Assembly: GCF_010731655.1 (NCBI RefSeq)
Contig: NZ_AP022619.1
Span: 2,604,001 to 2,668,000 of the forward strand
Direction: 5' to 3'
From: Mycobacterium paraseoulense
GTDB taxonomy: Bacteria > Actinomycetota > Actinomycetes > Mycobacteriales > Mycobacteriaceae
Length of the DNA stretch: 64,000 nt
The notes beneath the pieces were generated by a model. The model searched no databases and was not told the origin of the DNA. It worked only from the letters and a program-made list of their open reading frames with translations. How positions within the stretch are numbered: position 1 is the first letter of the stretch; every line of letters begins with the position of its first letter. This document shows, piece after piece, positions 16,781-63,294 of the stretch. Made by a program: the position numbers and the translations under genes.

Positions 16781-16870
16781 CGCGCGTCGATCGCGAGCGC
16801 GGCGCAGCCGGGCGACGCGGGTCGGCGCCGATCGCTGCGTCGATCGCGAGCGCGGCGTGAGGTCATCATC
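16781..16870. repeat. Degenerate copies of the 56-58 bp dispersed repeat
   Basis: About 1.4 copies of the family described at 63179: GTCGATCGCGAGCGCGGCG occurs at 16786-16804 and again from about 16839, with AGCCGGGCGACGCGGGTC between. Read on the minus strand it follows the 63179 unit closely over GACCCGC, CGCCCGGCT, CGCCGCGCT and GCGATCG. It sits between the adenylyl cyclase start and the divergent glycosylase start. Confidence 0.6.
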
Positions 16871-16877
16871 TGAAGTG

Positions 16878-17372
16878 ATGAGCGCACCATTGCTGCGGGG
16901 ATTCCCGCCGGTCGTCGACGAGAACGCCAGGGTGTTGATCCTGGGTTCGTTTCCGAGCGCGCAGTCGCTGGCGGTTGGCCAGTATTACGGCAATCCGCGA
17001 AATGCGTTCTGGGCGATCACCGCCGAACTGTTCGGGTTCGACGCGGCGGCGCCCTACGAAAACCGGCTGGCCGCGCTGCAATCGGTGGGCGTAGCCCTCT
17101 GGGACGTGTTGCGCGCATGCCGCCGCCCCGGCAGCGCGGACTCGGCAATCGAACCGAAGAGCTTGGTGGTCAACGATTTCGGTGAACTGTTCGCGCGATA
17201 CCCGACGATCACGCGGGTGTACTTCAACGGCGCCAAGGCCGCCGAGCTGTACCGCAGGCTCGCCGAGGCCGACGAGCGGGTGGAATACCGGCGGCTCCCG
17301 TCGACGAGCCCAGCCCACGCCGTCGGGCGGGGCGCCAAGCTGGCCGCCTGGCGAGTCATCTGTTCCTCATGA
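16878..17372 (+). CDS. DNA-deoxyinosine glycosylase-type protein (uracil-DNA glycosylase superfamily)
   Basis: This 164-residue protein has the small single-domain glycosylase pattern: [13 protein letters not shown] near the start, [11 protein letters not shown] as the nucleotide-binding motif, [11 protein letters not shown], and LPSTSPAHA near the end. This is the pattern of the DNA-deoxyinosine (hypoxanthine)/mismatch uracil glycosylase family, which removes deaminated bases for base-excision repair. ATG 16878 (GTG 16875 directly before it) is the natural start; the open frame upstream runs through the divergent cyclase region. I do not recall this gene at the M. tuberculosis locus, so it appears to be an extra gene. 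It converges with amiB2, overlapping it by 6 bp at the 3' ends. Cytosolic. Confidence 0.75.
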
Positions 17373-18770
17373 CACCGGCGGTCGCCGGTGCGCCCACGGC
17401 CTGGCGGATTCGATCTGCGCGGCCAACGACAACAGCGTCGCTTCCGCGAACGGCCGGCCCACCAGCTGCACGGCGATCGGCAGGCCGTCGCCGTCGAAAT
17501 CCCATGGCACGGCCGCGGCGGGCTGCCCGGTCAGGTTCCACACCTGCTGGTAGGGCACCCGCTGCGCCACCGCCAGCAGCGTCCATACCGCGCCGCGGCG
17601 TTGGTAGGCACCGATGCGCGAGGGCCCGGTCGCGTTGCCCGGCGTGACGACGACGTCGACGTCGTCGAAGATCGACTGAATCCGGGCGTTGACCGCGGCC
17701 TCGGCCTCGCGGAGGGCAACCATCCGGCGGTCGGAGAACAGTGAACCGGCGCGCGCCAGGTTGCGGGTGCGCGCTTCGAGACGGTCGGGATGGGCCAGCG
17801 CGTCGGCGTCGTCGCTGATACCCCGCAGGTAGCGGGGCAGGTAGTTGGTCATGATGGCCGACGGCGGATAGTCGGGGTCGGCGGTGATCACGTCGTGGCC
17901 CAGGTCGCGCAGCAACGCGCCGGCTTGCTCGACCGCGGTGAGCTGCTCCTTGCCGATCCTGACGGGCAGCGGGGTTGGGACCTTGGTGCTCAAGGCGATT
18001 CGCAGGCGCCCGGGCGCACGCGTCGCCGCCGCCGCGAACTCGCCCTCGGGCCCCGGCACGGTGGAGGTCGCATCGAGGAACAGCGCGGCGTCCAGCACGG
18101 ACCGGGCCAGCGGTCCGTTGACGCTCAGCCCATGCCACGCGTCGTCGTGGGGCTCCAGCGACACCCGATCCCGCTGGGGTTTGACACCGAACAGCCCGCA
18201 CCAGATCGCCGGGATGCGAATCGAGCCGCCGCCGTCGGATCCCAGCGCCAGCGGAGCCAGGCCGGCGGCCACCGCGGCGGCGCTGCCGCCACTGCTTCCG
18301 CCCGGGGTGCGCGTGAGGTTCCAGGGGTTGCGGGTGGCACCGAACGCCAGCGACTCGGTGTAGGGAAACATCATCAGCTCGGGCACGTTGGTCTTGCCGA
18401 GGATGACGGCGCCCGCGGCGCGCAGCCGGCGGACCACCTCCGCGTCGGATGTCGCCGCGGGCCGGTGTCCGCCGCTGCCGTATGTCGTCACCTCGCCGGC
18501 GACGTCGACGTCGTCTTTGATCGCGATCGGCACCCCGAGGAGCGGGAGCCGCTCGCCCGCGTCGAGGCGGTCCTGCGCGACCGCCGCCTCGTAGCGCGCG
18601 CTGTCGGAGAGCACCACGCGGTAGCACCGCAGCTGGCTGTCCAGTCGCGCGATCCGCTCGAGGTAGATCTCGAGCAACTCCGGCGCGGTCAGTTCGCCGT
18701 CGGCCAGCATCCGCACCTGAGCGGCCGCGCCGGCATAAGCCACATCGCGGGCCACGTCGCGAGCGTCCAC
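17367..18770 (-). CDS. amiB2: Amidase AmiB2 (amidase signature family)
   Basis: This 467-residue amidase-signature enzyme hydrolyses a carboxamide to acid and ammonia. The Ser-cisSer-Lys triad is visible: Lys85 in PIAIKDDVD, cis-Ser159/160 in TPGGSSGGS and nucleophile Ser183 in GSDGGGSIR. M. tuberculosis AmiB2 (Rv1263, 462 aa) is very similar throughout. I chose GTG 18770 because the frame upstream overlaps the HIT promoter, and because TACGCT (18777-18782 on the minus strand) stands 6 nt before it, a leaderless arrangement. The physiological substrate is unknown. It is divergent from the HIT gene with only 37 bp between start codons, so the two promoters overlap. Confidence 0.9.
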   Translation of the reverse strand: MDARDVARDVAYAGAAAQVRMLADGELTAPELLEIYLERIARLDSQLRCYRVVLSDSARYEAAVAQDRLDAGERLPLLGVPIAIKDDVDVAGEVTTYGSGGHRPAATSDAEVVRRLRAAGAVILGKTNVPELMMFPYTESLAFGATRNPWNLTRTPGGSSGGSAAAVAAGLAPLALGSDGGGSIRIPAIWCGLFGVKPQRDRVSLEPHDDAWHGLSVNGPLARSVLDAALFLDATSTVPGPEGEFAAAATRAPGRLRIALSTKVPTPLPVRIGKEQLTAVEQAGALLRDLGHDVITADPDYPPSAIMTNYLPRYLRGISDDADALAHPDRLEARTRNLARAGSLFSDRRMVALREAEAAVNARIQSIFDDVDVVVTPGNATGPSRIGAYQRRGAVWTLLAVAQRVPYQQVWNLTGQPAAAVPWDFDGDGLPIAVQLVGRPFAEATLLSLAAQIESARPWAHRRPPVS

Positions 18771-18776
18771 TGCGGC

Positions 18777-18782
18777 AGCGTA
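18777..18782 (-). promoter_or_regulatory. -10 box TACGCT, leaderless start of amiB2
   Basis: On the minus strand TACGCT matches TANNNT and is followed by 6 nt before GTG 18770. It lies back-to-back with the HIT-gene box at 18795. Confidence 0.45.
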
Positions 18783-18794
18783 TCCCCCGGCCAG

Positions 18795-18800
18795 TACCGT
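18795..18800 (+). promoter_or_regulatory. -10 box TACCGT, leaderless start of the HIT gene
   Basis: TACCGT then exactly 7 nt then ATG 18808. This favours ATG 18808 over an in-frame GTG at 18799 that lies inside the box. Confidence 0.5.
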
Positions 18801-18807
18801 GGGCGAC

Positions 18808-19236
18808 ATGTCCTGCGTGTTCTGTGCGATCGTCGCCGGGGAGGCCCCGGCCATCCGGATCTATGAAGACGACGACTTTGTGGCCATCCTCGACATCCGC
18901 CCGTTCACCCGCGGCCACACCCTGGTCGTCCCCAAACGCCACAGCGTGGATCTCACCGATACCCCAGCGGAAACGCTGGCCGGGATGGTCACCATCGGTC
19001 AACGGATCGCCCGCGCCGCCCGCTCGACGGAGTTGGCCGACGCGACCAACATCGCCATCAACGACGGCCGCGCCGCCTTCCAGACGGTGTTCCATATCCA
19101 CCTGCACGTGCTGCCCCGGCGCAACGGCGACAAGCTTTCCGTCGCCAAGGGGATGCTGCTGCGGCGCGACCCCGACCGCGAGGCCACCGCGCAAATACTG
19201 CGCTCGGCACTGGCCCGCATCGACGCCAGCCAGTAA
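18808..19236 (+). CDS. HIT family nucleotide hydrolase (Rv1262c-like)
   Basis: This 142-residue histidine-triad protein has its active site at FHIHLHVLP (His96-x-His98-x-His100), and an N-terminal CVFC pair plus His45 that can bind zinc. HIT proteins cleave nucleoside 5'-phosphoramidates or related adenylates through a His nucleophile; the exact substrate here is unknown. Size agrees with Rv1262c (144 aa). The DDN-like gene follows 10 bp later, so the two are probably co-transcribed. Cytosolic. Confidence 0.9.
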   Translation: MSCVFCAIVAGEAPAIRIYEDDDFVAILDIRPFTRGHTLVVPKRHSVDLTDTPAETLAGMVTIGQRIARAARSTELADATNIAINDGRAAFQTVFHIHLHVLPRRNGDKLSVAKGMLLRRDPDREATAQILRSALARIDASQ

Positions 19237-19246
19237 TACTGGGCCG

Positions 19247-19693
19247 ATGGCACTTCCGTCCTGGGTCGAGCAGCGGCTGCTGCCCCCGATGCTGCGCGTG
19301 CACGACACCGTCTACCGCAAGACGAACGGCTGGATCGGTCATCGCTTGCTGGTGATGCCCAGCCTGCTGCTGCACACCGTGGGCGCCAAGACCGGGCAGC
19401 CCCGTACCGCGGCGCTCACCTATGCGCGCGATGGAGACGACTACCTGATCGTCGCCTCCAAAGGAGGCGACCCCCGCGCACCCGGCTGGTACCACAACCT
19501 GCGGAAGAACCCGGACGTTGAAATCAACGTCGGCCCAAAGCGTTTCGCGGTGACCGCCCGCCCCGTGCTGCCCGATGACGCCGATTACTCGCGGCTGTGG
19601 CAGATCGTCAACACGAACAACGGCGATCGATACACGGCTTACCAGAAGAAGACGTCGCGGCCGATTCCCGTCGTGGTACTCAGGCGGCGTTGA
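19247..19693 (+). CDS. F420-dependent nitroreductase/quinone reductase family protein (Rv1261c-like)
   Basis: This 148-residue DDN-family protein has a split beta-barrel fold with the typical HTVGAKTGQPRTAALTY segment, VASKGGDPRAPGWYHNL and NPDVEINVG. These bind the deazaflavin cofactor F420. Family members reduce quinones or nitroaromatics; DDN itself activates pretomanid. Rv1261c (149 aa) is the positional match. ATG 19247 is 10 bp after the HIT stop. A TAATAC box 7 nt upstream could allow independent leaderless transcription but is imperfect. Two hairpins follow the gene (19707-19758). Probably membrane-associated cytosolic enzyme. Confidence 0.85.
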   Translation: MALPSWVEQRLLPPMLRVHDTVYRKTNGWIGHRLLVMPSLLLHTVGAKTGQPRTAALTYARDGDDYLIVASKGGDPRAPGWYHNLRKNPDVEINVGPKRFAVTARPVLPDDADYSRLWQIVNTNNGDRYTAYQKKTSRPIPVVVLRRR

Positions 19694-19706
19694 CCCTGAA
19701 CCCGGC

Positions 19707-19758
19707 GTGGAGGTTTATTCTCCACTAGCGCGGTGAACTTCTCGACAGCTCACCGCGC
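19707..19758 (+). terminator. Two consecutive hairpins after the DDN-like gene
   Basis: GTGGAG-N7-CTCCAC (19707-19725) is followed at once by GCGCGGTGA-N13-TCACCGCGC (19728-19758), a perfect 9-bp stem. Together they probably end the HIT/DDN-like transcript; the second could instead be an operator for the GGDEF/EAL gene, which starts 24 bp further on. Confidence 0.5.
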
Positions 19759-19782
19759 GGCGCTACATCGGCTGGAGTGGGC

Positions 19783-22700
19783 ATGAGACCCTGGGCGGGC
19801 AACCCGTGGTGGCGATTAAGGCTGCCCCCGCGTCTCGGTTGGCTCGTCCTCGGCGCATATGGTTTGGCGGCCGCGTTGGTGGTCGCGTCGTCGATCGGCG
19901 GCTGGGAGGGCGCGTACGCGACCCGGCCGGCCGACGAAGTCGCGTTGGCGGGCTGCCTGCTGGTCGGGGCGGGATGTGCGGGCTACGCGGCGCGCTCCGC
20001 GACGGGTCGGCACCGGGGCGGATGGGTTGCAATGGTGACGGCCCAGCTGGGCTGGGCCGCGGGCGAGGTCATCTGGGCCGTTTATGACGTGCGTCCGGGA
20101 CTGGCCCACGCCACCCATCCCGCGGCCGCCGAGATCGTCTTGTTGCTCTGGCCGTTCGGCGCCTTCGCGTCGCTGGTGCTGTTGTCACGGTTCTCCCGCC
20201 ACAGCCCACGCCGACTGGTGCTCGACGGCCTCATCGTGGCGACGTCGCTGTTCGTCGTGTCGTGGGTCTTCGTCCTCGACAAACAACTGCGCGAGGACAG
20301 CGGCTCCCGGGCGACCACCGTCGCTGAAGTCTTCAACGACGTCCTCCTGCTGACGACCGCGATCCTCATGCTGTCCCGGGTGCGTCGCGGCGACCCGCCG
20401 AGCCGCAACCTGCTGTCCGGCGGCGTGGTGACGATCAGCGTGGCCGACATCGCGATGGTGTTCAAGAGCGGGATCGGCAGCTATCAGGTGAGCGGTCTCG
20501 TGGACCTGGGCAGAGTGGCCGGGCTGGGCATGATCGCGCTGGCAGCGCTGTCCAGCGTCTACGAGGTCGCGGCGCCGGCCTCGCGCAACGACGAAATGCT
20601 GTCACGGACCCGGCTGTGGCTGCCGTACCTTCCGCTGGTGGTCGCCGCCGCGGTCGGGTTGGGCCACGCGGTGGGCTTGATGGCGCACGGCCCGCTAGTC
20701 GTCGCGTTGGGGATCCTCGTAGCCGCGGTGCTCGTGCGTCAGTTCGTCATGTTGATGGAGAACCAGAGCCTGCTGTCCGAGGTCGCCCGGGAAGCGTTCC
20801 GCGACAGTCTGACGGGGCTGGCCAACCGGGCGTACTTCCTCGATCGCCTGGAACAGGCCGTCGCCCGGCAGAGCTGCGACATCGCCCCCATAGCGGTGTT
20901 GTGCCTCGACCTTGACAACTTCAAATCGGTCAACGACGCCCTCGGTCACCCCGCGGGTGACGAACTGCTGGTCCGGGTGGCAGGGCGGCTCACCGCCGCC
21001 CTGGGCGACAAGTGCGTCACCGCGCGCCTGGGCGGCGACGAATTCGCCGTGCTCCTCGAGGGTCCCGTCGAGGAGTCGCACGCGGCGGCACATCGGGTCC
21101 TCGAGGCGTTCGACGCCCCGATCGTGGTCGACGGTGTTCCCGTACCGGTGCGACCGAGTGTCGGGTTCACGGTGGCCACCGTCGCGTCGGACTGCACCGT
21201 CGAGCAGCTCCTCCGGCACGCCGACCTGGCCATGTACACCGCCAAACGCGAAGGCGGCCAATGCGTTCGCAGCTTCGTGCCCGATTTGCCGCTCTCCTAC
21301 TCGCTGTCGGCCGCTCCGGCGCCCGGGCCGGCTCCCGCGGCGGTGGCGGCCGCCGAGACGAGCGCCGAGCCCATGCGCAGGCGGGTCACCGACGTCGGCA
21401 CGTCACGACCGGCGCCTCCGCAGGACGGTATCGACGGCGTCCGGTGGCCCCCGGCGCCGATCCGGATCGCTTTGGCTGTCTTGATTTTCGGCGTGGTCGC
21501 CTTCGCGGCGACCAGCCTCCTCTTCCCGCATGCCAGCCACAGCGTGTTCTTCGCCAAATCCCTGTACTCGGCGTTGAACCTGCTGGCGGCCGCGCTGATC
21601 GCCGTTCGCGCACACCGCCTCAAGGCCGACCGGATTGCATGGTCTCTGATCGCGGCAGGCATGGCATTCTCGGCGCTCGGTGACGTCGTTTACGCGTTGT
21701 GGGTGCCGAACGCTCACTCGCCATCGGTTGCCGATCCCGAATACCTGGCGTTCTATCCGTTCGTCTATGCCGGGATGCTGCTGCTGATGCGATCACACCT
21801 CAAGCGGGTGCCGGTGCCGATCCGCCTCGATTCCCTGGTGTGCGCGTTGGCCGTCGCCGCGCTGGCCGCGGCGCTGCGGGCCGGGCCCATGCACACCGCC
21901 GCGGAACGGACGCCCGCGACCGTGCTGGTGGGTCTGGTCTACCCGTGGGGCGACCTGGTGCTGCTGGCCCTGGCCGTCGGCATGCTGCCAATCGTCGGAT
22001 GGCGCAGGGAGTTTCGCTGGGGCTTCCTGGTCGTCGGGTTGATTGGCTTCGCGGTCGCGGACACGGCGTACCTCTTCCAGACATCGGCCGGCTCATACCG
22101 GGTAGGCACTACGCTGGACGCGCTCTGGCCGGCTTCGTCGCTGCTGGTGGCGATGGCCAGCTGGGCCCGGGGATCGTCGGCGGCACCGGCGACGCGGCGC
22201 GGGCTGGACTCCTACGCGGTGCCGGTGACGTGCACCGTGGTGGCACTCGGCGTCGCGATCCTGGGCCACCATTCACGGCTCGCCTCGACGCTCGCCGCGC
22301 TGAGCCTGGTCGCGGTCGCAGCGCGATTCTCGGTGACCTTCCGGGATGTCAGTCTGCTGGCCGAAAGCCACAAGCAGGCCATGACCGACAAATTGACCAC
22401 CCTGCCCAATCGGCGGTCGTTGGCGACTGCGCTGACCGCGCTCTCGGCTTCCGACCAACCGGTCGGAACGTCGTCGCGTCGCGCTCTGCTGCTGCTGAGT
22501 CTCCCCAGGCTGCGGGAGATCAACGACTCGGTCGGTCGCCACTTTGCCGATGAGCTGCTGTGGCGCGTCGCAAACCGGCTCGCGCACAACGTGCGTCGCG
22601 ACGATCTGCTCGCGCGGGTGAGCGACGAGGAGTTCGCGATCCTGCTCGGTGAGGGCTCCGATCTCGTCGCCGCGCGCGCCCAAGCGGGGCGGTTGCTCGA

Positions 22701-23706: not shown

Positions 23707-23710
23707 CCGG

Positions 23711-24742: not shown

Positions 24743-24788
24743 GTTCGCGTCAACGCCTCCCGGCGCGCGAACGTTCCCGGGCGCGGCG

Positions 24789-26728: not shown

Positions 26729-26772
26729 AAGAACATCCTGCAGTCAGCCGCGAGGCAACGACTGAACGCCCC

Positions 26773-26811
26773 GAATATTCAGTGGTCGGGCCGTGGATCA
26801 GCGGCTAAATT
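26773..26811 (+). promoter_or_regulatory. Promoter candidate of tap (AT-rich element, weak -35, TAAATT)
   Basis: TAAATT (26806-26811) fits TANNNT. A weak -35 TGGTCG lies 17 nt upstream (26783-26788), directly preceded by the AT-rich GAATATTCAG. An AT-rich block next to a weak -35 is the layout of WhiB7-dependent promoters, and tap belongs to the WhiB7 regulon in M. tuberculosis. Assignment to WhiB7 is inference. Confidence 0.4.
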
Positions 26812-26826
26812 CTCCCCGGGATACCC

Positions 26827-28080: not shown

Positions 28081-28081
28081 T

Positions 28082-28696: not shown

Positions 28697-28736
28697 CCGT
28701 CGAGGATCGCTCAACTGTACAGCGCTGATGGGTCCG

Positions 28737-32027: not shown

Positions 32028-33167
32028 TCAGGTCCGCACGCGGGTGAAGCGGTGCAGCAGCCAGGCCAGCGGGATGGTCAGCACCATCGTTGCCAGGAAC
32101 AGGTTCAGCATCGAGCCGGTGTAGACGTGCGCGCGCACGATGTAGACCATGGCGAACTCCATGGTGATCAGGTGGATCAGAAAGATCTCGTAGGAGATCT
32201 CGCCGAGCCACACCATCGGCCGGGTCGCCAGCAGCCGCCAGTACCAGCCCTGGTCGCCCAGGGCCAGCGGCGCCACCGCGAGCGCGGCGATCACCGCGTA
32301 GAAGCAGGTCTTGAACAGCGCCTCGCTCAACGTCGCCGGCGATGTCGTGGGTGCACCGGCGATGGGAGTGGAGACGATGAAATAGCAGACGACGGCCAGC
32401 GGGATGGCCACGAAGGCGTAGCCGCGCACGCCCATCGCCTGCAGGACGGCCAGCAACATCCCGGCGAGGAACCACGCCAGGTAGGTGGGCAGCCACAGCC
32501 GCGCGCCGTCGGGAAACCAGTGGTCGGTGTGCACGAGGACCAGCCAGGCCGGGCTGATCAGGGTCAACCCCGCCAGCGCTCCCAGCAGCAGCCTCGGCTG
32601 CCAGCGCCGGCGGCAGACCAGCACCAACAGCACGTATGCCAGCAGCGGGAGCAGCACGTAAAACGAGGCCTCCACGGCCAGGCTCCACATCTGGGTCAGG
32701 CCCTGATGCAGGTATTTACCCAGGTAGCCGTTGCAGTAGATCTGCGTCAGCGTCAGGTTGCGCACCAGCCCGAGCCACGTGTGCCCGGGATTGGGTCCGG
32801 CCTCTCGAAAGTGATACAGCACGTAGGCGAACAACACAGTGATGACGTAGGCCGGCATGATGCGCCGAACCCGATGCCACGCATAGCGACTCAGCGACGG
32901 CGGCGGCGCGCCGGTGGCGGCGGATTTCAGCCACGGGCGGAACAGCAGGAAACCGGACAGCACGAAGAAGATCGGCACGCCGATCTCCATGCGGGAGCCG
33001 ACCAGGCCCCAATAACCGTGGGTGTACTTGCCGGTGGTGTAGGCCGCGTGCGTGCCGACGACGAGGAGGGCGGCGACGGCGCGTATTCCGGTCAGCGACG
33101 CAACCCGGTCGACGTGGGCGGTCTGCTCCAGTCCGCCCTGGGCGTCTTGTTCTTCGGACAGGGTCAT
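32028..33167 (-). CDS. Membrane acyltransferase, family 3 (Rv1254-like)
   Basis: This 379-residue integral membrane protein has about ten helices. It begins SLTGIRAVAALLVVGTHA, where the Arg and the last His are the conserved catalytic-region residues of acyltransferase family 3, followed by FFVLSGFLLFRPW. Such proteins transfer acetyl or longer acyl groups to sugars, glycolipids or peptidoglycan at the outer membrane face; the acceptor is unknown. Rv1254 (383 aa) is the match. ATG 33167 overlaps the deaD stop (ATGA), so it is the second gene of a deaD operon. Confidence 0.88.
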   Translation of the reverse strand: MTLSEEQDAQGGLEQTAHVDRVASLTGIRAVAALLVVGTHAAYTTGKYTHGYWGLVGSRMEIGVPIFFVLSGFLLFRPWLKSAATGAPPPSLSRYAWHRVRRIMPAYVITVLFAYVLYHFREAGPNPGHTWLGLVRNLTLTQIYCNGYLGKYLHQGLTQMWSLAVEASFYVLLPLLAYVLLVLVCRRRWQPRLLLGALAGLTLISPAWLVLVHTDHWFPDGARLWLPTYLAWFLAGMLLAVLQAMGVRGYAFVAIPLAVVCYFIVSTPIAGAPTTSPATLSEALFKTCFYAVIAALAVAPLALGDQGWYWRLLATRPMVWLGEISYEIFLIHLITMEFAMVYIVRAHVYTGSMLNLFLATMVLTIPLAWLLHRFTRVRT

Positions 33168-34864
33168 CCGGTGTGTTTCCTGCGCGGCTTCCCGCCGTCC
33201 CGGCTGCGCGGCTTGCTCGCCGACCGGTCCGGCTGAAGGTTGATCAGCACCCCCGAAATGCGGGTGCGCTCGAGCTTCTTCAGGGTCGACGGGGACAGCT
33301 TGGCGGGCAATTCCACCAGCGAGAAGTCCGGGCCGATCGCGATGTGACCGAAGTCGCTGCGATGCAGGCCGCCCTCGTTGGCGATGGCGCCGACGATCGC
33401 GCCCGGGCCGACCTTGTGCCGCTTGCCCACCGCGATGCGGTATGTGGCGAGTGGCCTTGTTTGCCTTGACTTTTCGGCACGCTCGCGCTGCTCGGCCGTC
33501 CGCTCGCGGCGTTCGCGTGGCGGCTCGGGCGCCATCAGGAACTCTTCGCCGTCGCGGGAATGCAGCGCCAGCGCCGCCGCTATGTCGGCCAGCGGGACGT
33601 CGTGCTCGCGTTCATAGTCCTGCACCAGCTTGCGGAACAGGTCGATGCCCGGACGGCCCAGCGCGGCGGTGATGGAGTCGGCGAACTTCGCCACCCGCTG
33701 GGCGTTGACGTCCTCCACGGTGGGCAGCTCGGCCTCGGTGAGCGTTTGGCGCGTCGCCTTTTCGATCGCCTTGAGCAGGTGGCGCTCCCGCGGGGAAACG
33801 AACAGCAGGGCGGTCCCCGAACGCCCGGCCCGGCCGGTGCGGCCGATGCGATGCACGTAGGACTCCGTGTCGTGCGGGATGTCGTAGTTGAGCACGTGCG
33901 ATATGCGCTCCACGTCGAGCCCCCGCGCGGCCACGTCGGTGGCGACCAGGATGTCGATGCCGCCGTCCTTGAGCGCGGCGACGGTCCGCTCGCGCTGGCC
34001 CTGTGGGATGTCGCCGTTGATGGCGGCCGCGGAAAAGCCTCGCGCCCTGAGCTTTTCCGCAACTTCCTCGGTGGCCTGCTTGGTGCGCACGAAGACGATC
34101 ATCGCCTCGAACGGCTCCACTTCCAGGACGCGGGTCAGCGCGTCCATCTTGCGCGGGCCGGCGACCTGAATGTAGCGCTGCGAAATGTTCTCCGCCGTGG
34201 CGGTTTTGGCCTTGGAGGTGACCTCGAACGGGTCGTGCAGGTACTTGGTGGTGAGCTTGCGGATCGCCGGCGGCATGGTCGCCGAGAAGAGGGCAACCTG
34301 CTTGTACTCGGGGGTGTCGGCCAGGATGCGTTCGACGTCTTCGGCGAAGCCCATGGTGAGCATCTCGTCGGCCTCGTCGAGCACCAGGTAGTCAACCCGC
34401 GACAGGTCCAGGGTGCCGCGCTCGAGGTGGTCGATGACCCGGCCGGGGGTGCCGACCACCACATGGGCGCCGCGTCTCAGCCCGGCCAGCTGCACGCTGT
34501 AGGAGGAGCCGCCGTAGATCGGCAGCACGTTGATCTTCGGCAGATGGGCGCCGTAGCGGCTGAACGCCTCGGCCACCTGCAGGGCCAGCTCCCGGGTGGG
34601 GGCCAGCACCAGCGCCTGGGTCGCGGTGCTGGTGACGTCGATCTTGGACAGGATCGGGATCGCGAACGCCGCCGTCTTGCCCGTGCCGGTCTGCGCCAGC
34701 CCGACGACGTCCGAGCCCGCCATCAGCGCCGGGATCGTCGCGGCCTGGATGCCCGTCGGTGACTCGTAGCCGACGTCGGCGATCGCCCGCAGAACCGAGG
34801 GGTGGATCTGCAGGTCGGCAAAGGTCGGAGAGGCAGCCTCAGGAGAGCTGTCCGGGAGGTTCAT
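33164..34864 (-). CDS. deaD: DEAD-box RNA helicase DeaD/CsdA
   Basis: This 566-residue ATP-dependent RNA helicase has the Q-motif region TGIQAATIP, motif I AQTGTGKTAAF, Ia PTRELALQ, II DEAD (LVLDEADEML), III SAT, V and VI HRIGRTGRAGR, then a C-terminal DbpA-like RNA-binding domain (VGAIANEGGL...IGPDFSLVELP) and a basic tail. It unwinds structured RNA, with roles in ribosome assembly and cold adaptation, and associates with the RNA-degradation machinery in mycobacteria. Rv1253 is 563 aa. ATG 34864 is preceded by TAGACT 8 nt upstream, and the promoter region further up is replaced by a tandem repeat array. Confidence 0.93.
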   Translation of the reverse strand: MNLPDSSPEAASPTFADLQIHPSVLRAIADVGYESPTGIQAATIPALMAGSDVVGLAQTGTGKTAAFAIPILSKIDVTSTATQALVLAPTRELALQVAEAFSRYGAHLPKINVLPIYGGSSYSVQLAGLRRGAHVVVGTPGRVIDHLERGTLDLSRVDYLVLDEADEMLTMGFAEDVERILADTPEYKQVALFSATMPPAIRKLTTKYLHDPFEVTSKAKTATAENISQRYIQVAGPRKMDALTRVLEVEPFEAMIVFVRTKQATEEVAEKLRARGFSAAAINGDIPQGQRERTVAALKDGGIDILVATDVAARGLDVERISHVLNYDIPHDTESYVHRIGRTGRAGRSGTALLFVSPRERHLLKAIEKATRQTLTEAELPTVEDVNAQRVAKFADSITAALGRPGIDLFRKLVQDYEREHDVPLADIAAALALHSRDGEEFLMAPEPPRERRERTAEQRERAEKSRQTRPLATYRIAVGKRHKVGPGAIVGAIANEGGLHRSDFGHIAIGPDFSLVELPAKLSPSTLKKLERTRISGVLINLQPDRSASKPRSRDGGKPRRKHTG

Positions 34865-34872: not shown

Positions 34873-34878
34873 AGTCTA
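34873..34878 (-). promoter_or_regulatory. -10 box TAGACT of deaD, next to the repeat array
   Basis: On the minus strand TAGACT lies 8 nt before ATG 34864. The first repeat unit begins at 34881, so the whole -35 region of this promoter is repeat DNA. Confidence 0.45.
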
Positions 34879-34880
34879 GT

Positions 34881-35126
34881 GGTGATCGCGAGCTCAGCGG
34901 TGCTGAGCGCTGCGGGTCACCACCATGCAGGCCCGCGGTGATCGCGAGCTCAGCGGTGCTGAGCGCTGCGGGTCACCACCATGCAGGCGCGCGGTGATCG
35001 CGAGCTCAGCGGTGCTGAGCGCTGCGGGTCACCACCATGCAGGCCCGCGGTGATCGCGAGCTCAGCGGTACTGAGCGCTGCGGGTCACCACCATGCAGGC
35101 CCGCGGTGATCGCGAGCTCAGCGGTG
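34881..35126. repeat. 56-bp tandem repeat array, 4 full copies plus 22 bp
   Basis: Units begin at 34881, 34937, 34993 and 35049; a partial fifth runs 35105-35126. They are identical except for C to G in the GCGCGC end of unit 2 and G to A in the stem of unit 4 (CGGTACTG). Each unit contains GCTCAGC-GGT-GCTGAGC, a perfect 7-bp hairpin, flanked by GGTGA and TCACC that extend it imperfectly. The array fills the divergent gap between deaD and lprE. No spacer diversity, so not CRISPR. The unit is related to the repeats at 63179 and 16781. Confidence 0.95.
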
Positions 35127-35168
35127 CGTGCCCGGCCACGCCTCTCGCACCCGCGCGCGCGATGACGG

Positions 35169-52405: not shown

Positions 52406-52421
52406 CGCGGCGGTCCATCGG

Positions 52422-53015: not shown

Positions 53016-54184
<1,169 letters not shown>

Positions 54185-54188
54185 CGCG

Positions 54189-55017: not shown

Positions 55018-55028
<11 letters not shown>
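54189..55028 (-). CDS. sugB: Trehalose ABC importer permease SugB
   Basis: This 279-residue MalG-type permease has six membrane helices and the EAA loop [26 protein letters not shown], which contacts SugC. Residues start [17 protein letters not shown] 55028 overlaps the sugA 3' end by 11 bp. A longer frame to 55094 is part of the sugA region read in another frame. Pairs with SugA to form the channel for trehalose. Rv1237 is 274 aa. Confidence 0.94.
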
Positions 55029-57886
<2,858 letters not shown>

Positions 57887-58045
57887 CGCTGCTCATTCTC
57901 CTCCGCCCGGGCCAACGTCACATCTCGGGGCCTCCCAGCCTATCCAGCGACCGCGCGTCAACCTGCGGAAACAAGCCGAACCCCCCGATGACGCCAGTGC
58001 TGACCCGGGGGCGGTTCGCGGCCCGTCCACCTCCCGCACATCGGC

Positions 58046-58051
58046 TAGGTT
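58046..58051 (+). promoter_or_regulatory. -10 box TAGGTT, leaderless start of the DUF4190 gene
   Basis: TAGGTT, then exactly 7 nt, then ATG 58059. Supports ATG 58059 over an in-frame TTG at 58050. Confidence 0.5.
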
Positions 58052-58058
58052 GAAAACC

Positions 58059-58676
58059 ATGACAGCGCCCGGCGATGGCTTCGGCGAACACGCCAACGAT
58101 GACCAGGCCAAACCGTCCCCGGCCGGCGGCGGGGCGCCCGAGCAGCCAGGGACGCCGTGGGAACCGCCGGCATCGGCGCCGGCACCCGACTACCCGCCGC
58201 CGGCGTATCCGCCGCCGGGCTATCCGGCCGAGTACCACCCCGGTTATGCCGCCCCGTACACCCCGCCCCCGCCCGGGTACGGGCCACCGCCCGGGTACGA
58301 CCAGGCCGCCGGCTATGGCCCGCCGCCGTACCAGCAGGGGCAGCCGCAATTCGGTGGGCCGGCCGGCGGCTACGGGCCGCCGCCCTACCCGGGCGGCTAC
58401 TACCCCGCGCCGGACTACGGGGGCTACGGGCTGCCGAGCGGGGTGAAACCGGGGACGAACAAGCTCGCGATCGCATCGCTCATCTGTTCGTTCACCGGGG
58501 TGTTCTGCTGCTGTCTGGGCTCGATTGTGGCGATTGTGCTCGGCGCGGTCGCGGTTAACCAGATCAAGCGCACCCAGCAAGACGGCTACGGTCTCGCGAT
58601 CGCCGGCATCGTCATAGGCATCGCCACCCTGGTGGTCACCACGATCGTCGTCCTGTTCGCGATGCACTCGCGTTAG
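58059..58676 (+). CDS. Pro/Tyr-rich DUF4190 membrane protein (Rv1233c-like)
   Basis: This 205-residue protein has a long Pro/Gly/Tyr-rich cytoplasmic N-terminus (about 20-130) with repeated YGPPP and PPGY units, then a DUF4190 domain of two membrane helices (about 140-165, CSFTGVFCCCLGSIVAIVLG, and 180-203, IAGIVIGIATLVVTTIVVLF). The FCCC run is notable. Rv1233c is 198 aa. Function unknown; such tails often bind other proteins at the membrane. ATG 58059 is leaderless by the TAGGTT box. Divergent from the lpqY operon. Confidence 0.8.
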   Translation: MTAPGDGFGEHANDDQAKPSPAGGGAPEQPGTPWEPPASAPAPDYPPPAYPPPGYPAEYHPGYAAPYTPPPPGYGPPPGYDQAAGYGPPPYQQGQPQFGGPAGGYGPPPYPGGYYPAPDYGGYGLPSGVKPGTNKLAIASLICSFTGVFCCCLGSIVAIVLGAVAVNQIKRTQQDGYGLAIAGIVIGIATLVVTTIVVLFAMHSR

Positions 58677-58701
58677 CATCAGCCCCTAACGGCGGCAAAC
58701 C

Positions 58702-58729
58702 CCGCCGCCGTCTGCCATCACGGCGGCGG
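58702..58729 (+). terminator. Hairpin after the DUF4190 gene
   Basis: CCGCCGCCG (58702-58710) and CGGCGGCGG (58721-58729) form a perfect 9-bp stem with a 10-nt loop, 25 bp after the stop codon. Confidence 0.5.
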
Positions 58730-58734
58730 CTGCC

Positions 58735-58740
58735 TAGGCT
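58735..58740 (+). promoter_or_regulatory. -10 box TAGGCT, leaderless start of the MgtE_N/CBS gene
   Basis: TAGGCT with a 6-nt spacer to ATG 58747. Confidence 0.45.
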
Positions 58741-58746
58741 TTTCCC

Positions 58747-60054
58747 ATGGCATCGGTCAACAGGGTCTACATCGCCCGGCTCTCGCGGATGTTGGTGCTG
58801 GGTCCGCTCGGCGAGTCCTTCGGCCGGATCCGCGACGTCGTGGTCAGCATCAGCATCGTGCGTCAGCAACCGCGCGTCCTGGGACTGGTCGTCGATCTGG
58901 CGACGCGGCGCAGCGTCTTCATCCCGATGCTCCGGGTCGCCACGATCGAGCCGGAGGCCGTCACGCTCAACACCGGCAGCGTCTCCCTGCGCCACTTCGA
59001 GCAGCGCCCGGGTGAGGTGCTGGCGATCGGTCAGGTGCTCGACACCCAGGTCAGGGTCAACGACCCCGCGCTGCCCGAGCTGGCCGGCCTCGACGTCGTC
59101 GTCACCGACCTGGGTATCGAACAGACCCGCACCCGCGACTGGATGGTGAGCCGCGTCGCCGTGCGCAGCCAACGGCGGCTGGGCCGGCGCGGCCCCGTGC
59201 ACGTGGTGGACTGGCATCACGTGCAGGGCCTGACCCCGTCGGCGCTGGCCCTGCCGGGCCAGGCGGTCGCGGGGCTGCTGGACCAGTTCGAGGGCTGGAA
59301 GGCGGTCGACGTGGCCGACGCCATCCGAGGCCTGCCACCCAAGCGGCGCTACGAGGTGCTCAAAGCGCTCGACGACGACCGGCTCGCCGACGTCTTGCAG
59401 GAGCTGCCCGAGCTGGACCAGGCCGACGTGCTTTCCGAGCTGGGCACCGAACGCTCGGCCGACGTGCTCGAGGAGATGGATCCAGACGATGCCGCCGACC
59501 TGCTGGGCGTGCTCAACCCGACGGACGCCGAGATGCTGCTGACCCGGATGGATCCCGATGATTCGGCCCCGGTGCGGCGGCTGCTGGCACATTCCCCCGA
59601 CACCGCCGGTGGCCTGATGACCTCTGATCCGGTGGTGCTGACGCCCGACACGTCGGTCGCCGAGGCGCTGGCCCGGGTCCGCGACCCCGACCTCACCCCC
59701 GCCCTGTCGTCCATGGTGTTCGTGGCGCGCCCGCCCACGTCCACACCCACCGGCCGCTACCTGGGCTGTGTGCAGCTGCAGCGGCTGCTCCGCGAACCGC
59801 CGGCGGAACTTGTCGGCGGGATCGTCGACACCGACCTGCTCACCCTGACGCCGGAGACGCCGCTGGCTGCGGTGACCCGCTACCTGGCCGCCTACAACCT
59901 GGTGTGCGGACCGGTGCTGGACGACCAGAACCATTTGTTGGGGGCGGTGACGGTGGACGATCTCCTCGATCACCTGTTGCCGCACGACTGGCGGGTGGAC
60001 GTACAGGCGCTCGACGCGACGGGCTGGCTCGAAGAACTGGGAGGATCGCGTTGA
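58747..60054 (+). CDS. MgtE N-domain and CBS-pair protein without channel domain (Rv1232c-like)
   Basis: This 435-residue cytosolic protein has an N-terminal beta-rich PRC-barrel-like part (LGPLGESFGRIRDVV), an MgtE N-terminal superhelical domain (about 180-290; repeating RYEVLKALDDDRLADVLQELPELDQADVL units) and two CBS modules (about 290-420; DPVVLTPDTSVAEAL and LLTLTPETPLAAVT). MgtE uses these domains to gate a Mg2+ channel, but the five channel helices are absent. Rv1232c is 435 aa. It may sense Mg2+ or adenosine ligands; the partner could be the next protein, which overlaps it by 4 bp. Confidence 0.86.
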   Translation: MASVNRVYIARLSRMLVLGPLGESFGRIRDVVVSISIVRQQPRVLGLVVDLATRRSVFIPMLRVATIEPEAVTLNTGSVSLRHFEQRPGEVLAIGQVLDTQVRVNDPALPELAGLDVVVTDLGIEQTRTRDWMVSRVAVRSQRRLGRRGPVHVVDWHHVQGLTPSALALPGQAVAGLLDQFEGWKAVDVADAIRGLPPKRRYEVLKALDDDRLADVLQELPELDQADVLSELGTERSADVLEEMDPDDAADLLGVLNPTDAEMLLTRMDPDDSAPVRRLLAHSPDTAGGLMTSDPVVLTPDTSVAEALARVRDPDLTPALSSMVFVARPPTSTPTGRYLGCVQLQRLLREPPAELVGGIVDTDLLTLTPETPLAAVTRYLAAYNLVCGPVLDDQNHLLGAVTVDDLLDHLLPHDWRVDVQALDATGWLEELGGSR

Positions 60055-60593
60055 GCAGGTCGTCGGCGCCGCGTCGGCTCTACACCCCGCGGACGTCGCG
60101 CAGGTACTCGCCGCGCCTGGATCCCGAGGCCGTCGGCCAGATCACCGAATCCATCGCACGCTTCTTCGGCACCGGCCGCTATCTGCTGGTGCAGACGATC
60201 CTCGTGCTGGCGTGGATCGCGCTGAACCTGTTCGCGGTGCGGCTGCGCTGGGACCCGTATCCCTTCATCTTGCTCAACCTGGCGTTCTCCACGCAGGCCG
60301 CCTATGCGGCGCCGCTGATTCTGCTCGCCCAGAATCGTCAGGAGAATCGGGACCGGGTCGCGCTGGAACAGGATCGCCATCGGGCGGCCCAGACGAAGGC
60401 GGACACCGAGTTCCTGGCCCGCGAACTCGCCGCGGTGCGGCTCGCGGTCGGCGAGGTCGTGACCCGCGAATATCTGCGTCACGAACTCGAAAACCTGCGC
60501 AGCATGCTGGAGAATCTTTCGCCCGATTCCGCTGGCCCCGACGCGGTCCAGGGCGGTGACGGCGGGGACCGCGACCTTAAGAAATCGGGCTGA
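60051..60593 (+). CDS. DUF1003 membrane protein (Rv1231c-like)
   Basis: This 180-residue protein has two membrane helices (about 45-65, LLVQTILVLAWIALNLFAV, and 77-97, FILLNLAFSTQAAYAAPLILL), then a charged helical tail (QNRQENRDRVALEQDRHRA). This is the DUF1003 pattern. Start TTG 60051 overlaps the previous stop (TTGA) and has GGGAGGA 6 nt upstream; it gives the Rv1231c length of 180. With the MgtE_N/CBS partner just upstream, it may form the membrane part of one system, possibly magnesium or cation related (inference). Confidence 0.84.
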   Translation: MSRSSAPRRLYTPRTSRRYSPRLDPEAVGQITESIARFFGTGRYLLVQTILVLAWIALNLFAVRLRWDPYPFILLNLAFSTQAAYAAPLILLAQNRQENRDRVALEQDRHRAAQTKADTEFLARELAAVRLAVGEVVTREYLRHELENLRSMLENLSPDSAGPDAVQGGDGGDRDLKKSG

Positions 60594-60640
60594 GAACCTG
60601 TTCCGACCATTGCGCCACTCTGGTCACAAGAGTTATGTAT

Positions 60641-60656
60641 GGTGATCTAGTTCACG
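60641..60656. promoter_or_regulatory. CRP-like binding site before the transglycosylase-like gene
   Basis: GGTGA-TCTAGT-TCACG contains perfect arms GTGA and TCAC spaced by 6 nt, matching the mycobacterial CRP (Rv3676) consensus TGTGA-N6-TCACA at all core positions. It lies 44 nt before GTG 60700. I recall Rv1230c among proposed CRP targets in M. tuberculosis but cannot verify it here. Confidence 0.6.
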
Positions 60657-60699
60657 GCTGAGAGAGCAGTTGACCAGCTCACACACCTAGGACGGTCGA

Positions 60700-61965
60700 G
60701 TGCGCATTGGGGGAAGCCGGGGTGCACGCCCGGCCGCCGCAGCGGAGCGGCTGAGAGCACTTCAGGTCACACGCTCGCGTGCGTTCGGCGTAGCCACCAT
60801 CGCCCCCTTGGTCTTCGCGGGAGCAGTCAGCGGGGCGGCGCCCTCCCTTCCCGAGAAGCTGCCCCCGGTGCACGCCAACATCGCCCCGGTGGCCGCCGTC
60901 TCCCCATCCGTTCCCGACCTCTCGGGACCGGCCGTCGTCACCGCCGACCGTTCCCCGGTCGCCTTCCACGTCGCCGAGCCCGCCTTGTCGGCGCCACCGC
61001 CGGCAATGATCGTGAATGCACCTGGTGCGCTTGGCATTCCGAGCATCGCACTGGCGGCCTATCGCAGTGCCGAGCAAAAGATGGCCGTGGCCGCCCCGAA
61101 CTGCGGCGTGAGCTGGAACTTGCTGGCCGGGATCGGGCGCATCGAATCGGGCCATGCCGGCGGCGGCGCGGTCGACGCGCGCGGCACTGCGGTCGTCCCG
61201 ATTTACGGCCCCGCGCTGGACGGAACGTTGCCGGGTAACGAGATCATCCTGCAGAGCAGCACCGGCAATCGCCCCACCTACGCCCGCGCGATGGGGCCGA
61301 TGCAGTTCTTGCCCGGCACCTGGGCGCGGTACGCCTCCGACGGCAAAGGCGATGGTGTTGCCGATCCCCAAAACCTTTTCGACGCCACGCTGGCAGCGGC
61401 GCGCTACCTGTGCAGCGGCGGCCTCAACCTCCGCGACCCGTCGCAAGTGATGGCCGCGATCCTTCGCTACAACAACTCAGTGGCGTACGCCCAGAACGTG
61501 CTGGGCTGGGCCTCGGCATACGCCACCGGCGTGGTTCCCGTCGATCTGCCTCCGATGACGGGTCCGCCGCCTCCGCTCGGCGACGCGCACTTGGAGCATC
61601 CCGAGGGACTCGGCCCCAACCTGCCGATGAACGTCAACGGGTTGCCGATGGACGATCCGCTGGCGCGCATGCCGCTGATCGACCTCACCCAACCGCAGAA
61701 TGCCGGTCCACCGCCGATGTTCCCGTGGATGACGCCCGCGCCCCAGCAGGCCCCGGCCCGGCTGCCCGGCTGCACGGTGATCTGCGTCGGCCCCCAGAAC
61801 CCGCCGCCGAATGCCGCACCGCCGTGGGCGCCGCCGCTGGCCCCGCCGCCGTGGGCGCCGCCGATGGCACCGCCGCCACCTCCGGACCCGCAAGCGGCCG
61901 CGCCGCCGGCGGCACCCGCCCAGGCGTCGCCGGCACCCAAACCGGCCGGGCCGGCGAACGGCTGA
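60700..61965 (+). CDS. Lytic-transglycosylase-like secreted or membrane protein (Rv1230c-like)
   Basis: This 421-residue protein has a probable N-terminal signal/anchor (AFGVATIAPLVFAGAVSGAAP, about 27-50). An SLT-type lysozyme-like domain follows (about 115-285), with catalytic-type IGRIESGH (Glu in GRIESGHAG), YARAMGPMQFLPGTW and the C-terminal RYLCSGGLNL and AAILRYNNS. This group (SLT_2, MltB-like) cleaves the peptidoglycan glycan strand. The last 130 residues are Pro/Ala-rich and may anchor to or cross the wall. Rv1230c is 411 aa. A CRP-like site in its promoter links it to cAMP signalling. GTG 60700 starts MRIGGSRGARP. Confidence 0.85.
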   Translation: MRIGGSRGARPAAAAERLRALQVTRSRAFGVATIAPLVFAGAVSGAAPSLPEKLPPVHANIAPVAAVSPSVPDLSGPAVVTADRSPVAFHVAEPALSAPPPAMIVNAPGALGIPSIALAAYRSAEQKMAVAAPNCGVSWNLLAGIGRIESGHAGGGAVDARGTAVVPIYGPALDGTLPGNEIILQSSTGNRPTYARAMGPMQFLPGTWARYASDGKGDGVADPQNLFDATLAAARYLCSGGLNLRDPSQVMAAILRYNNSVAYAQNVLGWASAYATGVVPVDLPPMTGPPPPLGDAHLEHPEGLGPNLPMNVNGLPMDDPLARMPLIDLTQPQNAGPPPMFPWMTPAPQQAPARLPGCTVICVGPQNPPPNAAPPWAPPLAPPPWAPPMAPPPPPDPQAAAPPAAPAQASPAPKPAGPANG

Positions 61966-62033
61966 CCGGCCCGGCGCTGATCCCGGGTCGCCCCCAAGCG
62001 CTGCCATCTCGCTCGCGCCTACACTCGGCGGTG

Positions 62034-63179
62034 ATGTCCCCTCATGACACTGCCGACTTGAGCGCAGCAATCCGCACCGCACTGGGCAAGGTGATCGACC
62101 CCGAACTACGGCGCCCCATCACCGAACTCGGGATGGTCAAGAGCATTGACACCGAGCCCGGCGGCGGCGTGCACGTGGCGATCTATCTGACCACCGCCGC
62201 CTGCCCGAAGAAGACCGAGATCACCGACCGGGTCACCCAGGCCGTCTCCGACGTCCCGGGCACCGGGGCCGTGAAAGTCACCCTGGACGTGATGAACGAC
62301 GAGCAGCGCACCGAACTGCGCAAGCAGTTGCGCGGCGATGCCCGCGAACCGGTCATCCCTTTCGCCCAGCCGAACTCGCTGACGCGGGTCTATGCGGTCG
62401 CCTCCGGCAAGGGCGGGGTGGGGAAGTCCACCGTCACCGTCAACCTGGCCGCCGCGATGGCGGCCCGCGGCCTGTCGGTCGGCGTGCTCGACGCCGATAT
62501 CCACGGCCACTCCATCCCGCGGATGATGGGCACCACCGACCGCCCCACGCAGGTCGAGTCGATGATCCTGCCGCCCATCGCGCATGAGGTGAAGGTCATC
62601 TCCATCGCCCAGTTCACCGAGGGCAACACGCCGGTGGTGTGGCGCGGGCCGATGCTGCACCGGGCGCTGCAGCAATTCTTGGCCGACGTCTACTGGGGTG
62701 ATCTGGACGTGCTGTTGCTGGATCTGCCGCCGGGCACCGGCGACATCGCGATCTCGGTGGCTCAGCTGATCCCCAGCGCCGAGATCTTGGTGGTGACGAC
62801 TCCGCAGCTGGCCGCGGCCGAGGTCGCCGAGCGGGCGGGCAGCATCGCGATGCAAACCCGGCAGCGCATCGCCGGGGTGGTGGAGAACATGTCGGGTCTG
62901 ACCCTCCCCGACGGCTCGACGATGCAGGTGTTCGGCGAGGGCGGCGGCCGGCAGGTGGCCGAACGCCTGTCCCGCGCGGTCGGTGCGGACGTGCCGCTGC
63001 TGGGCCAGATTCCGTTGGACCCCGCGCTGGTGGCCGCCGGCGATTCCGGCACCCCGATTGTGCTCAGCGCCCCCGACTCGCCCGCGGGCAAGGAATTGCG
63101 CAGCGTGGCCGACACCTTGTCATCGCGGCAGCGCGGATTGGCGGGCGTCTCACTCGGGCTCGATCCGACGCGACGCTAG
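62034..63179 (+). CDS. mrp: Mrp/ApbC-family iron-sulphur cluster carrier
   Basis: This 381-residue P-loop protein has an N-terminal MIP18/DUF59 domain (about 1-100, KVIDPELRRPITELGMV) and a C-terminal deviant Walker A VASGKGGVGKSTVTVNL (about 120-136), DADIHGHSIP, DLPPGTGD and ENMSG. Mrp proteins carry or assemble [Fe-S] clusters for target enzymes. Rv1229c is 390 aa. The TACACT box (62020-62025) precedes ATG 62034 by 8 nt; GTG 62031 is possible. Its stop codon TAG uses the first base of a repeat unit at 63179. Cytosolic. Confidence 0.93.
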   Translation: MSPHDTADLSAAIRTALGKVIDPELRRPITELGMVKSIDTEPGGGVHVAIYLTTAACPKKTEITDRVTQAVSDVPGTGAVKVTLDVMNDEQRTELRKQLRGDAREPVIPFAQPNSLTRVYAVASGKGGVGKSTVTVNLAAAMAARGLSVGVLDADIHGHSIPRMMGTTDRPTQVESMILPPIAHEVKVISIAQFTEGNTPVVWRGPMLHRALQQFLADVYWGDLDVLLLDLPPGTGDIAISVAQLIPSAEILVVTTPQLAAAEVAERAGSIAMQTRQRIAGVVENMSGLTLPDGSTMQVFGEGGGRQVAERLSRAVGADVPLLGQIPLDPALVAAGDSGTPIVLSAPDSPAGKELRSVADTLSSRQRGLAGVSLGLDPTRR

Positions 63180-63294
63180 GCCTGATGGTGGCGACCCGCT
63201 TCGCCCGGCTTCGCCGCGCTTGCGATCGCCACGCGAGGCCTGATGGTGGCGACCCGCTTCGCCCGGCTTCGCCGCGCTTGCGATCGCCACGCTA
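63179..63294. repeat. 58-bp direct tandem repeat, two copies
   Basis: Copies at 63179-63236 and 63237-63294 differ only near their end (GCGA versus GCTA). Each begins GGCCTGATGGTGGCGACCCG and ends GCGATCGCCACGC, with GTGGCGA and TCGCCAC forming a 7-bp inverted repeat around a GC-rich core. The array supplies the last base of the mrp stop and, at its right end, the tatB stop (CTA read on the minus strand). It is the only sequence between these convergent genes, and it matches the family at 34881 and 16781. Confidence 0.95.

Follow-up and report, generated by a model that had tools for sequence, protein, structure and literature searches.

The repetitive extragenic palindromes (REP) and bacterial interspersed mosaic elements (BIME) of enterobacteria are tied to REP-associated tyrosine transposases (RAYT), and to our knowledge REPs leave no target duplication; mycobacterial interspersed repetitive units (MIRU) carry a small open reading frame (ORF), insert at DTGA stop/start junctions and take the orientation of the flanking genes. 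The subject of this work is a repeat found at three sites in a 64,000-nt stretch of Mycobacterium paraseoulense (the window), corresponding to positions 2604001-2668000 of its 6.09-Mb single-contig genome; the core of this element is a 46-nt nested imperfect palindrome, GGTGGCGACCCGCNNCGCCCGGCTNCGCCGCGCTYGCGATCGCCAC. As in REP/BIME and in miniature inverted-repeat transposable elements (MITE) such as NEMIS, the element is a short intergenic palindrome, present in many copies and devoid of coding capacity, but unlike REP it displays duplications of 5-6 nt and tandem arrays built on the target. According to the accessible text of the sources, the MIRUs of M. tuberculosis measure 46-101 bp and occupy 41 loci (PMC3914561), and MIRUs are located in the senX3-regX3 gap (PMC4213456; PMC3599157); the element resembles them in size class, tandem habit and stop/start sites, but differs in sequence. 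The M. tuberculosis stem-loop families Myt-1, Myt-8, Myt-9 and Myt-11 (65-92 bp, 33-75 members in the part of PMC2267715 at hand) are likewise small mycobacterial stem-loop repeats, and the element might be identical to one of them.

No named element with this consensus was found in the literature, most subscription papers lying outside the search, in line with the first-pass annotation of the window, which could name no described family. The sequence is nevertheless in print, since it appears in no fewer than two published data sets on typing or variants, whose accessible text does not recognize it as one element: the repetitive-sequence polymerase chain reaction (rep-PCR) of Mycobacterium intracellulare (PMC10117815) and a variant table of bacillus Calmette-Guérin (BCG; PMC9870133). 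Primers 1, 2, 4 and 5 of the former are pieces of the element, with best window matches at 1, 0, 2 and 1 mismatches, respectively, all within 63184-63233. That text gives, for an identity of 90%, between 31 and 63 loci for each primer and places the primer source sequences in genes for a hypothetical protein, an efflux protein, DrrB, LpqB and RfbE; unlike the element described here, the repeat appears there as primers only, and the accessible part describes no element, hairpin, target site or family (PMC10117815). Primer 3 of the same set contains a MIRU-type motif, GACGATGCAGAGCGAAGCGATG, whose best window match has 5 mismatches.

In the second data set (PMC9870133, Table 4), BCG Pasteur has lost a 79-bp intergenic repeat at 3193555; this repeat has an exact 26-nt core and GATGGTG in common with the element, the two aligning with a score of 28 compared to a maximum of 18 in 1000 shuffles. 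Its terminal stem GTGATGA/TCATCAC is a compensatory variant of that of the element, and the unit is about 24 nt longer because of a second GC-rich hairpin nested in its left arm. Some other copies also enclose a GC-rich hairpin, 24-28 nt long (TCCCCCGCAAGCGGGAGGTGCCCCCA or a variant of it), in the left arm in genomes G121 (L388) and G017 (L381) and in the apical loop in a M. paraseoulense locus near 3068500 (L205), and it also occurs without the element, in L393, thus forming a hairpin repeat within a hairpin repeat. Judging from its coordinates and unit size, the 79-bp unit is presumably ETR-F/VNTR3239.

The reading that we favor, with a probability of roughly 0.7, is that of a non-autonomous hairpin-forming mobile repeat, mobilized in trans, which produces a short target duplication and grows in tandem on that target. 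The proposal of the first-pass annotation that the three sites represent one dispersed family is borne out by the whole genome, which contains far more than three of them. A degenerate 41-nt core, derived from the three window sites and therefore matching all of them at 0-1 mismatches by design, gives 68 matches at no more than 3 mismatches (33 forward, 35 reverse), the others being independent, compared to 0 for the same pattern read backwards. With an E cut-off of 0.1, a covariance model built from 16 units retrieves 86 matches (weakest E, 0.09), which amount to about 47 loci when neighbors are grouped by eye. Flanks were analyzed for 44 loci outside the window, and allowing up to 13 mismatches to the 46-nt core yields 79 units, grouped into 40 arrays.

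The family is present in about half of the sampled congeners, with matches in 56 of 118 genomes of the genus (M. paraseoulense included), at least 10 matches in 51 of these 56 and none in the remaining 62; the per-genome model counts derive from the best candidates scored, at most 44, under stricter filters, and are thus lower bounds. In a further set of 81 genomes 3 match, five of the 81 lie within the genus, and none of the 76 outside it matches. An exact-core scan of named genomes returned at least 114 stretches, and all 80 titled ones among the matches listed are mycobacterial (Mycobacterium, Mycolicibacter and Mycolicibacterium vulneris), their species names suggesting that the carriers are slow growers. 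Among 72,556 plasmid records there are two matches, both from mycobacteria and with no annotated feature under the match; no match was found in phage records, and none of the long form in G089 among the matches listed.

The whole element measures about 50 nt, the 46-nt palindrome being preceded by a few nucleotides that often read GAT, and tandem copies are separated by a spacer that varies from locus to locus. RNA folding of the unit at 34935-34980 yields -25.4 kcal/mol (z -3.53 against shuffles) and that of the first unit of the array at 63187 yields -22.9 kcal/mol (z -2.68); altogether, four of the five units folded singly are more stable than their own shuffles (z -2.3 to -3.5). The hairpin core proposed at first pass is substantiated by covariation in the terminal stem across 59 distinct units of M. 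paraseoulense, where 9 of 16 pairs are changed on both sides compared to a shuffle mean of 3.2, with a covariation score of 0.161 compared to 0.075; neither the score nor the pair count is reached in any of 500 shuffles, and the signal falls sharply when the partner is slid by 1-3 columns. Counting the ungapped first unit of each array, terminal pairs are formed in 246 of 273 cases in M. paraseoulense (maximum 236 in 2000 shuffles) and in 727 of 812 at the exact-core-scan loci of named genomes (maximum 688), although the shuffles overstate the certainty somewhat because related rows are not independent. The 39 M. paraseoulense arrays display 18 distinct left arms, mostly paired with a matching right arm, and the recurring stem variants include GTGGCGA, GCGGCGA, GCGGTGA, GTGACGG and GTGATGA, among others. 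Complementarity of the terminal stem is thus kept by paired changes, and terminal inverted repeats of the MITE type are present as a 7-bp stem with compensatory change. The inner core is nearly invariant in these 39 arrays and in the 116 arrays of the exact-core scan, the latter having been found through that core. No Rfam family covers the repeats in the window or in L022, L023, L031 and L040.

The coordinates and tandem numbers first reported for the three sites hold: (i) 34881-35127, with a period of 56 bp, 4.4 copies and 97% match in Tandem Repeats Finder (TRF); (ii) 63169-63296, with a period of 58 bp, 2.2 copies and 95% match; and (iii) 16784-16857, where a 21-nt exact repeat at a distance of 53 nt corresponds to one unit and part of another. 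The consensus proposed with them has to be redrawn, since it mixes the element with locus-specific sequence. GACCCGC and GCGATC occur at all three sites, including the copy at 16784, which starts with GGCGCCGACCC, but GGCCTG and ATGGTGG are confined to two sites, GGCCTG being part of the spacer between units and not of the element.

Most copies of the element lie at the end of a gene or immediately in front of a -10 box. Using a simple codon-usage gene caller, with uncertain starts, 35 of the 40 M. paraseoulense arrays are intergenic, in a genome whose window is about 7% non-coding, so that the confinement to gaps and gene edges stated earlier applies to most arrays, but 5 of the 40 overlap a called gene. 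The intergenic arrays lie between convergent (14), co-oriented (13) and divergent (8) genes. The sequence following the core starts with TAG in 14 of 39 arrays and with TA in 18 (background for TAG, 0.0029 per position); in a larger set of 167 arrays, which includes the orthologous regions L328-L387, the 3' edge reads TAG in 62 and TAA in 15. CTAG proved too narrow a definition of the whole target and was rejected, since there are also edges that read TAA, TAC or TGG. TANNNT at the edge, with a start codon within 13 nt, is found in 6 of 39 M. paraseoulense arrays and in 7 of the 116 exact-core-scan arrays, a layout that we take to be that of a leaderless mycobacterial gene with its -10 box. 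In front of the window's DEAD-box helicase gene, TAGACT abuts the array, the start codon at 34864 lies 8 nt beyond it, and the gene is apparently leaderless. Of 24 congeners, 22 have TAGACT ahead of this gene as well (21 identified by script and G022 by eye), the remaining two have TAAACT or TAAGCT, and CACTAGACT is exact in 10; 23 of the 24 hold no recognizable unit there. The edge motif therefore belongs to the target rather than to the element. Only 1 of the 40 arrays (2 of the 47 model loci) falls within 0.24-2.38 Mb, 35% of the chromosome, a region chosen after seeing the data.

The target duplication was assessed in 155 arrays, namely 39 from M. paraseoulense and 116 from the exact-core scan, with orthologous regions excluded; the 116 stem from 114 exact-core loci and are thus biased towards that core. 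Direct repeats of 5 nt or longer flank 17 of the 155 arrays (mean 2.4 and maximum 8 in 500 shuffles of the flanks), those of 6 nt or longer flank 11 (1.0, maximum 5) and those of 7 nt or longer flank 2 (0.3, maximum 4). The excess at 5 and 6 nt, compared to 2 arrays at 7, points to a duplication of 5-6 nt. In the 68 multi-copy arrays, the last spacer equals the right flank for at least 5 nt in 18 (shuffles 1.4, maximum 5) and the first spacer equals the left flank for at least 6 nt in 35 (shuffles 0.9, maximum 4). A target-site duplication of the MITE type is thus supported by this excess and by three comparisons with empty sites.

Presence or absence of the element varies among related species. 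The mrp-tatB gap holds it in M. paraseoulense alone among 24 loci (this genome and 23 congeners; in G008 mrp lies outside the stretch), and the gap measures no more than 27 nt and lacks a hairpin element in 11 of 24 congeners; G006, G007, G023 and G015 (L241, L242, L244 and L246) carry arrays or single units on the far side of tatB. The site upstream of the helicase gene is occupied at 2 of 26 loci, those of M. paraseoulense and G017, with a possible decayed remnant, by eye, in G001 (no other relative compared at mrp and deaD is closer). Fourteen further M. paraseoulense loci were compared with 59 stretches from 7 congeners (L387 left out as too long), of which 13 contain recognizable units and some others show remnants by eye.

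The insertion structure is visible at a few of these loci. The junction of rnc and mutM, named by Pfam, is empty in 5 of 7 congeners and reads CTAGATG in G010 and G015, the stop of one gene standing against the start of the next; the filled site of M. paraseoulense reads 'CTAGATctat[E]TAGATG', where [E] stands for the element, and filled sites in G001 (three units) and G023 (three recognized units) end in TAGGTG and TAGATG, respectively. At L206 the empty site of G001 reads CGCTGTGAGGGCTAG, and G017 carries tandem copies (four recognized) with the separator TGTGAGGttt and the end TGTGAGGGCTAG. At L210, G017 reads GCTAGTTGACGC, and G001 holds three copies bounded by CTAGTTGA and TAGTTAAC, in the form 'CTAGTTGAat[E]TAGTTGAat[E]TAGCAGat[E]TAGTTAACGC'. 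The tandem spacer at these loci thus equals the local target sequence plus 2-4 nt. Copy numbers at orthologous sites in M. paraseoulense and G001 are 4 and 2, 2 and 1, and 2 and 3, and tandem amplification and a REP-like nature, both suggested at first pass, fit these observations, as does a MITE-like nature.

A plausible course of events begins with insertion at a site containing TAG or TAA, often CTAG, where, as the few empty sites and the statistics suggest, 5-6 nt of target would be duplicated. The inserted copy would then be flanked by two target copies, between which unequal exchange or slippage could build a tandem array, whose period, mostly 53-58 nt, would be the sum of target and element, with the locus's own target as spacer. 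Cutting and joining would be performed by an enzyme that recognizes the hairpin or its ends and is presumably encoded elsewhere, since the element codes for nothing. Insertions at stops or upstream of -10 boxes may be tolerated, since the gene concerned does not lose its stop or its -10 box. Movement in trans, already put forward at first pass, was not confirmed, being deduced from the lack of coding capacity, with no transposase found. The accompanying claim that no transposase lies nearby holds for the six genes flanking the window arrays, none of which is a transposase in profile searches, the remaining window genes not having been scanned for one.

Several observations weigh against this mobile-repeat reading. 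An exact flanking repeat of 5-6 nt is kept in only about one array in ten, none of the 91 single-unit arrays keeps 7 nt, and some single-copy loci of M. paraseoulense lack a flanking repeat, so that in most arrays a perfect duplication must have decayed or must never have existed. Three of the five empty rnc-mutM sites do not read CTAGATG, that of G007 being CTAGTG and those of G017 and G006 differing. The L237 locus lacks the element in G001, the close relative, but has it in G017, G010, G006 and G015, and some "empty" sites must therefore be losses, or one spot must have been hit repeatedly. The diverged unit at 16784 folds no better than its shuffles (z 0.57), and the alignment used for covariation was fitted to the structure of the model and hence leans towards it. 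The 16-mer of the left end has 16 exact copies in the M. paraseoulense genome, all in known arrays, and there is thus no sign, for this one end in this one genome, of a longer autonomous copy.

The most serious alternative, although we consider it unlikely, is that the hairpins are under selection as RNA 3'-end modules, that is, bidirectional terminators or stabilizers of convergent genes, with mobility being secondary. The compensatory stem changes fit this reading, and 14 of the 35 intergenic arrays lie between convergent genes, compared to 10 convergent pairs among the 50 pairs of neighboring genes in the window (binomial 0.006; Fisher 0.053), an over-representation that is suggestive only. 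At the mrp-tatB junction, G006, G023, G013 and G004 carry other well-folding palindromes (z -10.6, -4.9, -3.6 and -3.2 against mononucleotide shuffles), and the sequences of G018 (z -1.3) and G001 (z -0.8) do not fold well. The palindrome of G006, moreover, recurs at a second locus where M. paraseoulense has the element; it comprises GCAGACGCNAAATCGC and its reverse complement, spans about 65 nt and is unrelated to the element (L241, mrp-tatB gap; L376). The 8 arrays between divergent genes, the several arrays directly upstream of -10 boxes and the 11 congeners with a short, hairpin-free mrp-tatB gap speak against a primary 3'-end role. Intrinsic terminators with a T-run were also considered, and no terminator-like site of this kind was seen at the two arrays tested. 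The element may all the same have a regulatory function or one at the ends of genes. A broader proposal, which we put forward with considerable doubt, is that a genus-wide class of mobile hairpins in slow-growing mycobacteria is aimed at gene punctuation (sites beside stops and just upstream of leaderless -10 boxes), would be recognized as a hairpin by an enzyme acting in trans, and would then be kept and swapped as end-of-gene or promoter-upstream modules, with array length tuning neighboring genes such as that of the helicase.

A far less probable alternative is that the element is a senX3-regX3-type MIRU, a class of repeats that contain a small ORF and insert at stop/start junctions. The two share the size class (PMC3914561) and the tandem habit, and both kinds are used in one rep-PCR (PMC10117815), as far as the accessible text of these sources goes. 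A MIRU search anchored on the MIRU3 primer (PMC3599157, seen in part) matched 58 of 198 congeners, and 8 loci were examined. In four of these congeners (L452, L470, L461 and L462) the senX3-regX3 gap contains a different unit, with the motif GACGATGCAGAGC or GATGATGCAGAGC, and at all 8 loci examined the half-core was absent within 900 nt at no more than 6 mismatches. In 8 alignments with senX3-regX3 units the window unit scores 7-11, compared to 28 for the BCG unit (PMC9870133, accessible table); 3 of these alignments are ordinary and 5 lie within the best 1.7-4.6% of 1000 shuffles, and these 5 leave room for a faint MIRU likeness (GACCCGC). As regards DTGA junctions, the arrays show one TAGATG junction, the clear stop/start insertion at rnc-mutM, and one TGTGAGG site in G017, next to the TAG and TAA edges of 62 and 15 of the 167 arrays. 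The co-oriented arrays follow the orientation of the genes in 5 of 13 cases and oppose it in 8, contrary to the MIRU rule. The MIRU-like character noted at first pass thus applies to habit and not to sequence.

The remaining alternative, independent slippage of chance GC-rich palindromes at each locus without common ancestor or movement, would suit a GC-rich genome and the near-identical copies within a locus, but it is refuted by the shared, nearly invariant inner core, by the 0 matches of the reversed pattern and by the occurrence of the element at unrelated intergenic sites for which congeners have element-free versions, and is virtually excluded.

Repeats of this kind underlie the tandem-repeat typing of mycobacteria, and a distinct palindromic element that is not a MIRU and follows its own insertion rule would provide a rational basis for the variability of such loci and make insertion and array change accessible to tests. 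The element would also point to a putative mobilizing enzyme in a group that includes pathogens and environmental species.

Table 1. Units of the element and neighboring features in the window (positions of the 64,000-nt stretch)
Feature	Coordinates	Strand	Basis or remark
Array, four full 46-nt hairpin units and a partial fifth	34879..35127	-	TRF, repeat analysis
Full units of the 34879 array	34879-34924, 34935-34980, 34991-35036, 35047-35092	-	
Spacers of the 34879 array			10 nt, gggcctgcat or gcgcctgcat
TAGACT, probable -10 box of the DEAD-box helicase gene	34873..34878	-	Abuts the 3' end of the element
Gene for a DeaD-type DEAD-box RNA helicase, on the downstream side of the array	33164..34864	-	Pfam DEAD, Helicase_C, DbpA, DeaD_dimer
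Two hairpin units (63187-63232 and 63245-63290), spacer gcgaggcctgat	63187..63290	+	TRF, repeat analysis
Left direct repeat GCTAGG, includes the mrp stop TAG (63177-63179)	63175..63180	+	Sequence, ORF end
Right direct repeat GCTAGG, includes the tatB stop (CTA, 63292-63294, minus strand)	63291..63296	+	Sequence, ORF end
mrp/apbC-type Fe-S carrier gene, start approximate	62100..63179	+	Pfam ParA/NUBPL, FeS_assembly_P
tatB gene, convergent with mrp	63292..63699	-	TIGR01410 tatB, 74.7 bits, cut-off 56.5
One diverged hairpin unit, with the predicted adenylate cyclase start 3 nt downstream	16784..16829	-	Core match
Partial second unit, 21 nt, right half	16837..16857	-	Repeat analysis
Adenylate cyclase gene (Ad_Cy_reg and Guanylate_cyc)	15662..16780	-	Domain search
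DNA-deoxyinosine/uracil glycosylase gene, other side of the diverged unit	16881..17372	+	TIGR04274, PF03167

The predicted start codon of the adenylate cyclase gene is a TTG next to the diverged unit (window 16780-16829), and because only 3 nt separate the two, the 5' end of this gene may have been redefined by the repeat. Just past the 3' end of the same gene, at 15542-15648 on the plus strand, Rfam identifies the small RNA ncrMT1302 (113.4 bits, E 1e-21). A 27-bp tandem repeat at 61819-61877 (2.2 copies, 93% match) lies in an ORF and is unrelated to the family.

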